The position numbers were made by a program, and so were the translations under genes. Shown in pieces: positions 40,127 through 41,980 of a stretch of DNA of 64,000 nt; the first letter of the stretch is position 1, and each line of letters starts with the position of its first letter. The notes under the pieces were generated by a model that did not search any database, was not told where the DNA came from, and saw only the letters and a program-made list of their open reading frames with translations. The stretch comes from Thermodesulfobacteriota bacterium (GTDB lineage: Bacteria; Desulfobacterota_D; UBA1144; Nemesobacterales; UBA2774): the NCBI GenBank assembly GCA_040754335.1, contig JBFMCV010000003.1:173356-237355 (forward strand), in the 5' to 3' direction.

Positions 40127-40543
40127 ATGGCAGAGATTTCAGAGAAGGACGAAGTTCTGTTCCCGGAGCTTTTCAAGGTGGACAATGAAGGCAGGGTCAG
40201 GCTCGTGGCGGGGTACTCGAAAGAGTCTAATAACTGGACTTTCCCGAAATACCTGGCCGACCCGGTAAGCTTCTCGGACGAAGTCGAAGAGAGGCTGCTC
40301 AGCCCCACGGGAGAGCTGCATTCATTTACGGTCGTAAGGAGGAGCATGCCCGAGTTCCCCGTCCCATACGCGCTTGCGCTCGTAGATTTTCCGGAGGGAG
40401 TCAGGGTCATGGCCCAGGTCGAAACGAGTGACCCGGAGGGACTGAAAATCGGCCAGAAGATGGGAGTCACGATAGGGACCGTGAAGAAATCCAAGGACGG
40501 CAGGGACGTTAAATCGTATAAATTCGTACCCGTCAGCAACTGA
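40127..40543 (+). CDS. DUF35-type OB-fold protein without zinc cysteines
   Basis: 138 aa. The C-terminal half resembles the OB-fold of DUF35 (ChsH2/thiolase-partner) proteins: LHSFTVVRRSMPEFPVPYALALVDFPEGVRV is the usual strand pattern (shown here as two joined stretches, LHSFTVVRRS and YALALVDFPEG). The N-terminal zinc ribbon of the family should hold four cysteines; this protein has none there. Such proteins normally pair with a thiolase-like or steroid-hydratase partner to bind acyl-CoA, but no thiolase is adjacent. GGAG precedes the ATG closely. It is monocistronic by position. Confidence 0.7.
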   Translation: MAEISEKDEVLFPELFKVDNEGRVRLVAGYSKESNNWTFPKYLADPVSFSDEVEERLLSPTGELHSFTVVRRSMPEFPVPYALALVDFPEGVRVMAQVETSDPEGLKIGQKMGVTIGTVKKSKDGRDVKSYKFVPVSN

Positions 40544-40732: not shown

Positions 40733-41617
40733 ATGAAGAAACCTCTTCTTACGCTCGTCTTATCGGGAATAATCGTCATACTTCCTATAACCGCTTATAC
40801 GGTCAATACGGCCGACTCATACCCGGAAGACGACCCGGCCGCGGAATCCCCCGCCGGGAAGAACAAAATCCTCTCGGTCGAGGTAACGAACACGGACCTC
40901 CGCCTGATCCTCCTGGGAACTCTCACGAGCGGCGGGGTGTCTAAAGCGATGATAAAGAACCCCGTCACCGGGGAGCTCGGATCGTACGTCCGGGGGGACG
41001 TACTCGACCTCGTCAGCTCGGAAACCGTGAAGGTAGCCGAGATATCCAACTGCGCCGTGCTCATCGAGAGGTCTGGAAAATTCGAGACCATGGAGTGCGA
41101 GAATAAAATGCCTACCGTCGTTTTTAACAGACCGTCCGCACTCTCGAGGTACAGAATAATCCTTCCCGAAGACGGCAAAACCAGGTTCGTCTTCTCGGAC
41201 GAATTTATAACGGACTACGACAAGGACATACTGAGCGTGAGCGAGAAGCACGGGGTCGATCCATATCTCGTGAAGGCTGTGATAAAGGCCGAATCGAACT
41301 TCGACCCGGACGCCGTGTCGCCCAAGAACGCACAGGGCATAATGCAGCTGATACCGGAAACCGCGAGCGATTACGGAGTAGATGACCCGTTCGACGCTAA
41401 GGACAACATGGAGGGCGGGGTGCATTACCTGAAAGACCTCCTCGAGTACTTCGACGGGGACATGAGCCTCTCTCTCGCGGCGTATAACGCGGGCAAGGGC
41501 GCCGTCATAAAACACGGCTTTTCTATCCCGCCCTATCCGGAAACGACGGACTACATAGCAAAAGTCCTCGGATATTACAAATTGCTCAGGGCGAAAAGCT
41601 ACGCTTTAAAAAGATAA
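40733..41617 (+). CDS. Lytic transglycosylase with an N-terminal GspC-HR-like domain
   Basis: 294 aa. One N-terminal membrane segment or signal (about 4-22) leads to a domain at about 43-125 that matches the homology region of type II secretion protein GspC: TDLRLILLGTL, then a Ser-x-Ala pattern, TGELGSYVRGD, and VLIERSGKFETME. The C-terminal domain (about 165-290) is an SLT family 1 transglycosylase: VIKAESNFDPDAVSP with catalytic Glu187, AQGIMQLIPETA, and LSLAAYNAGKGAV. The enzyme should cut glycan strands in the periplasm. In secretion systems the HR domain binds the secretin N0 domain, so this fusion may aim peptidoglycan cutting at a secretin. Confidence 0.85.
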   Translation: MKKPLLTLVLSGIIVILPITAYTVNTADSYPEDDPAAESPAGKNKILSVEVTNTDLRLILLGTLTSGGVSKAMIKNPVTGELGSYVRGDVLDLVSSETVKVAEISNCAVLIERSGKFETMECENKMPTVVFNRPSALSRYRIILPEDGKTRFVFSDEFITDYDKDILSVSEKHGVDPYLVKAVIKAESNFDPDAVSPKNAQGIMQLIPETASDYGVDDPFDAKDNMEGGVHYLKDLLEYFDGDMSLSLAAYNAGKGAVIKHGFSIPPYPETTDYIAKVLGYYKLLRAKSYALKR

Positions 41618-41750: not shown

Positions 41751-41824
41751 GGGCCCATAGCTCAGTTGGTTAGAGCGGCGGACTCATAATCCGTTGGTCC
41801 CTGGTTCGAGTCCGGGTGGGCCCA
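41751..41824 (+). tRNA. tRNA with CAU anticodon (Met or Ile2)
   Basis: 74 nt cloverleaf: acceptor GGGCCCA pairs with TGGGCCC, D arm GCTC/GAGC, anticodon stem GCGGA/TCCGT with loop CTCATAA (anticodon CAU), T arm CCTGG/CCGGG with loop TTCGAGT, discriminator A. CCA is not encoded. It is not an initiator (position 1:72 is paired, and the anticodon stem lacks three G-C pairs). The TTGGTC variable-region context resembles tRNA-Ile2, whose C34 is changed to lysidine by TilS, about as well as elongator tRNA-Met; sequence alone does not decide. Confidence 0.93.
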
Positions 41825-41980
41825 CACTTTAGAAGAGGTTATAGTTTTCTAAATGGGCATAGAAGTTAAAACGAGCGGCAGCCTCCCAAAATCAGTCCCG
41901 ATACCTGTTTCCACATTTCCAGCAAGAATCATTAAAACCCTTCTTTCCGAAAATAACGCGGCAAAAAAAAGGAGAAAAAA

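Follow-up and report, generated by a model that had tools for sequence, protein, structure and literature searches.

The analysed window, a stretch of 64,000 nucleotides, encodes a protein in which an HR domain homologous to that of the type II secretion (T2SS) protein GspC is fused to a complete SLT lytic transglycosylase domain. The host genome (G000) belongs to Candidatus Dadabacteria, as do, by name, most of its nearest public relatives. The protein is probably a transglycosylase that binds the secretin GspD at its N0 domains, opening the peptidoglycan for assembly of the secretin.

Architecture of the HR-SLT protein

The gene consists of 294 codons plus a stop codon, and the reading frame and the HR motifs quoted in a preliminary description of this DNA are present (residues 54-64, 79-89 and 109-121). 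In brief, a likely signal peptide at the N-terminus of the product is followed by a GspC-type HR domain and then, across a flexible linker, by a complete SLT lytic transglycosylase domain; the coordinates of these parts and of the neighbouring features are listed in the table below.

Features of the HR-SLT fusion gene and its surroundings (positions in the window)
Feature	Position	Strand	Basis or remark
Unrelated ORF	40127..40543		upstream of the fusion gene
HR-SLT fusion gene	40733..41617	+	orthologues in 25 further Dadabacteria genomes
Likely cleavable Sec signal peptide, residues 1 to ~24	40733..40804	+	alignment read by eye
Variable segment, low confidence, residues 25-50	40805..40882	+	AlphaFold2 pLDDT <50 at 17-51
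GspC-type HR domain, residues 51-124	40883..41104	+	Pfam, profiles, AlphaFold2, Foldseek
Cys107	41051..41053	+	invariant in 26/26 fusions, conserved in Dadabacterial GspC
Cys122, partner cysteine	41096..41098	+	invariant in fusions
HR-SLT linker, residues 125-157	41105..41203	+	pLDDT <50 at 124-135 and 140-156
SLT lytic transglycosylase domain, residues 158-290	41204..41602	+	PF01464, Foldseek; ES, GxMQ, AYNAG motifs
Glu187 (GAA), catalytic-type glutamate	41291..41293	+	invariant in 26/26
tRNA-Met	41751..41825		downstream of the fusion gene

Most orthologues begin with what resembles a cleavable signal peptide, in contrast to the membrane anchor of GspC: a basic start is followed by a hydrophobic core and, in most of them, by small residues at the putative cleavage site (VYS, SYS, VSA or SVA). 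Residues 124-156, which are mostly modelled with low confidence, are read as a flexible linker. Cys107 and Cys122 of the HR domain probably form a disulfide bond.

The presence of a complete SLT enzyme with Glu187, as first proposed, was confirmed by a Pfam match to PF01464 (residues 170-260, E=2.6e-26), by the glutamate codon and by Foldseek, in which this part of the protein matches Slt, LtgA, MltC, MltF, MltD and MltE. The ES, GxMQ and AYNAG motifs and the catalytic glutamate are those of a family 1 SLT lytic transglycosylase. In an alignment of 26 orthologues spanning both domains (one of them, L023, without part of its C-terminus), residues E187, S188, G202, M204, Q205 and Y251-G254 are invariant in all SLT domains (26/26), and T63, N76, G88, C107 and C122 are invariant in all HR domains. 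With these catalytic motifs intact, the fusion protein is a predicted lytic transglycosylase. Its closest SLT paralogue in the same genome (L046:2978-4159; C3:557 kb) is an SLT-SPOR transglycosylase, which shares 48% identity over the SLT part and differs by a C-terminal SPOR domain and the lack of any HR match.

Kinship of the HR domain with GspC

The Pfam family T2SSC (PF11356) is matched by residues 43-120 with an E-value of 1.8e-4 and 21.8 bits, short of the curated cut-off of 27 bits, which two orthologues pass (G030, 41.8 bits; G026, 38.9 bits). As the score of the HR domain under study is marginal, its identity was checked by independent routes. Indeed (i) the fusion HR shares 37% identity with the GspC of its own genome (E=2.3e-10 in a genome-wide search, E=2e-12 pairwise), and the GspC proteins of many relatives share 33-44% identity with the fusion protein in whole-genome searches, (ii) a profile built from fusion HRs alone retrieves Dadabacterial GspC with E-values down to 2e-23, as well as GspC encoded near a secretin gene in five genomes outside the class (E<1e-3), and has the solved GspC 7oio as its sole significant match in the PDB (E=6.8e-4), (iii) hhalign aligns the fusion HR with its own GspC at a probability of 98.9 (E=3e-17), against 0.8 for the PilP of the same genome. 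A chance resemblance to GspC is ruled out by the Pfam match, the genome search, the scores of the orthologues, the profile and hhalign taken together.

Structure prediction leads to the same fold. An AlphaFold2 model computed from fusion sequences only (residues 43-144) contains six strands (59-66, 69-75, 82-86, 99-105, 108-113 and 116-122), with a core pLDDT of 85-95, and the best three of 350,542 PDB chains in a Foldseek search with this model are HR domains of PilP (probability 1.00, TM ~0.55, E 0.002-0.015). The HR domains of PilP and GspC have a common fold, described in PMC3169554 as a beta-sandwich of two three-stranded sheets. The GspC-like HR domain that the preliminary description placed in the N-terminal part is therefore borne out by the Pfam scores of the orthologues, the 7oio match, hhalign and Foldseek, and the predicted fold on which that description would have stood or fallen is an HR fold; only its term "beta-barrel" was wrong. 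A PilP-type HR is ruled out by the sequence comparison (0.8 vs 98.9) and by the genome distribution presented below. Judged by its sequence, the HR domain of the fusion is a homologue of the GspC HR, of GspC type rather than PilP type. Fusion HRs keep the L.L..LGT, KN and Y..G motifs and the cysteine pair of GspC; most of them have lost the strand motif (RNIF in GspC) that precedes the HR core, with KNSVF retained in L020, and the domain has diverged in families f3, f6 and f7.

The cysteine pair is common to the fusion HRs and the HRs of Dadabacterial GspC, and is absent from five GspC from outside the class. In an HR tree resting on few columns (76), Dadabacterial GspC form one clade (99/97), with the fusions adjoining it and set apart from other GspC (94/84). 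The main group of fusions does not include two diverged sequences; monophyly of all fusions is compatible with the data (p-AU 0.39). The simplest reading is that gspC would have been duplicated in a Dadabacterial ancestor and one copy joined to an SLT gene. In most families, folD and thiD are close neighbours of the fusion gene, which for the most part occupies a single syntenic locus. No T2SS gene adjoins it in nine near relatives or at ten loci from other families whose flanks were read, and an operon link is ruled out for these flanks. The true gspC of G000 is located at C3:385.8 kb, upstream of gspD.

Distribution and the LysM-bearing secretin

The HR-SLT fusion is encoded in 26 of 58 Dadabacteria genomes. 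A T2SS, scored by a gspE orthologue of at least 64% identity, is present in 24 of these 26; it was not found in G005, which is 77% complete, nor in G022, which is split into 710 contigs. Among the 31 fusion-free genomes, 17 are without a T2SS and 14 have one, namely 13 genomes of genus g10 and the fragmented G032. Another genome (G025), in which a contig begins within a closely similar SLT, is outside both counts. The co-occurrence with the T2SS that the preliminary description had raised as a question was thus found. The association gives a Fisher p of 2e-4, a calculation that ignores shared ancestry, and such values overstate the support, since the distribution reflects few independent events. 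Genus g2 (G004, G008, G011-G015) has the fusion and the T2SS with no match to a PilQ-type secretin or pilus ATPase, whereas family f5 shows the reverse (G019 and G023: PilQ and pilus ATPase, no T2SS, no fusion). The fusion follows the T2SS, not type IV pili. It is not universally required, since genus g10 retains a T2SS without it.

The GspD of G000 (L044:10885-13593, C3) carries a LysM domain (E=2e-11) before N0 (E=2e-17). With LysM scored by sequence pattern and Pfam (by Pfam alone in G034 and G032), this domain was found in 17 of the 18 fusion genomes with a readable GspD start, G029 being the exception, and was missing from each of nine g10 genomes (0/9), all fusion-free. In G032, GspD has LysM and the fusion was not found. 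The g10 T2SS is therefore without two wall-related features, the fusion and LysM, whose joint absence represents one or two evolutionary events. The genomes of this genus are small (1.3-1.9 Mb) and we infer that it is the streamlined marine group of PMC8115339; genome reduction could explain the loss of both features. A LysM ahead of N0 is itself a particular trait of Dadabacterial GspD, with two copies in G021. According to the account in PMC9239104, only the LspD of Legionella is known in the T2SS to have a wall-binding domain before N0. The two are comparable in bearing this domain on the secretin itself, the domain of LspD being of another type (SPOR); unlike the fusion protein, LspD brings no enzyme.

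Beyond Dadabacteria, no HR-SLT fusion was found at the approximately 75 T2SSC loci retrieved with PF11356 from 387 genomes. Three plasmid SLT proteins with a tblastn match extending into the HR have no HR match and are encoded in or near conjugation gene sets. Furthermore, a genome outside the class (G100, C159; L212:11227-13026) encodes an SLT protein with a lipoprotein-like start about 15 bases upstream of an orphan second gspC, its operonic gspC-gspD being elsewhere (C81). This pair is possibly an unfused counterpart of the fusion; it is a single case that may be due to chance, and only a lead: by a rough estimate, 75 loci would have about 0.27 neighbours of this sort by chance alone. Two further arrangements were observed: a tandem pair of GspC-like ORFs adjoining a secretin gene (L118/L154; G272, C38) and a 244-aa ORF with two tandem HR-like stretches (L121:1747-2478; G307, C4).

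A possible role in secretin assembly

Secretin complexes far exceed the mesh of the wall (~2 nm), and the passage of the T2SS secretin through the wall is described as unsettled in PMC9239104, a paper that implicates GspA and GspB and supposes that such machines are aided by transglycosylases, whether specialised or housekeeping. A review (PMC6403190) lists the T2SS among the systems that use transglycosylases, the sole candidate in its listing being PilT, with a role yet to be ascertained; type IVa pili are reported to have no dedicated enzyme (PMC5285504). The HR domain of GspC binds N0 of GspD, with strands one to three making most of the contact (PMC3169554). N0 is also bound by the HR of GspB, a protein that is required for secretin assembly and ties the secretin to peptidoglycan (PMC9239104). 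Given this published binding of N0 by the GspC HR and the role of GspB in assembly, opening of the wall at the secretin under guidance of the HR domain is the best reading of the fusion; this function, put forward in the preliminary description, is now the explanation with the most support.

On this reading, the protein would act in the periplasm as a lytic transglycosylase devoted to the T2SS. Its HR domain, presumably derived from a GspC duplication, would attach to GspD at the N0 domains, and the flexible linker of about 35 residues would keep the SLT domain at the secretin. Glu187 would then cut glycan strands, opening the wall for insertion of the secretin, which could be anchored by its own LysM while it is inserted.

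Docking on GspD could also serve maintenance or quality control, the enzyme trimming the wall around the finished T2SS, or the protein could rival GspC for N0 and so tune secretion. All the HR evidence applies equally to such roles, and competition for N0 would be natural because the fusion HR is a GspC paralogue by its position beside the Dadabacterial GspC clade (99/97); the distance of the gene from the T2SS operon would suit them too. The present data do not separate assembly from maintenance, but the GspB precedent in the literature, as presented in PMC9239104, concerns assembly, and we hold these roles to be unlikely. Less likely still is a housekeeping transglycosylase whose HR has lost secretin binding and acts as a generic periplasmic module in folding, autoinhibition or wall binding. 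The fixed chromosomal site distant from T2SS genes, the different module (SPOR) borne by the closest SLT relative in the genome and the diverged HRs of f3, f6 and f7 would agree with it, but the residues shared with GspC (L.L..LGT, KN, Y..G and the cysteine pair) are retained, and the co-distribution with the T2SS and with LysM-bearing GspD would have to be coincidental. Targeting of the pilus secretin PilQ in the manner of PilP, with the enzyme serving pilus installation, is very improbable: the top Foldseek matches are PilP structures and many fusion genomes encode a pilus system as well, but hhalign assigns the HR to the GspC type, and g2 has the fusion in the absence of PilQ and pilus ATPase while f5 has the opposite.

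The assembly role that we favour can be compared with known systems. GspC has an HR of the same family with the same cysteine pair and differs by its membrane anchor, its PDZ domain or coiled coil and its encoding with gspD; the fusion protein has no PDZ, a signal peptide that is likely cleaved, an attached SLT domain and a gene outside the T2SS operon. It has a GspC-family HR, yet it is not a GspC. To our knowledge, none of the specialised transglycosylases of other machines is fused to a GspC-type HR, and the protein can be regarded as an enzyme of this known kind with a new targeting domain. VirB1 of the T4SS and EtgA of the T3SS similarly are transglycosylases that open the wall for one envelope machine (PMC6403190). 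In GspB/OutB and GspA, a secretin-serving HR is likewise joined to or partnered with a part interacting with peptidoglycan; as described in PMC9239104, GspB differs in being membrane-anchored and in lacking a transglycosylase domain, and GspA in having a peptidoglycan-binding domain. The Pfam family T2SSB (GspB) had no match in the 61 genomes searched, the Dadabacteria included, nor in the control set. A literature search of titles, abstracts and selected passages, with most subscription papers outside its scope, yielded no HR-SLT protein, and the fusion appears to be undescribed, as had been supposed.

In summary, we consider it somewhat more probable than the contrary that many Dadabacteria have a dedicated peptidoglycan-opening enzyme of the T2SS, brought to its site by a duplicated GspC HR and partnering a LysM-bearing GspD. 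If so, it would apparently be the first known enzyme with a physical link to the installation of the T2SS secretin. From the natural fusion of a secretin-docking domain to a wall-cutting enzyme follows a direct prediction, testable with two purified domains; the fusion also suggests that these cells have a tool built in to open the wall at the site of assembly of the outer-membrane pore.
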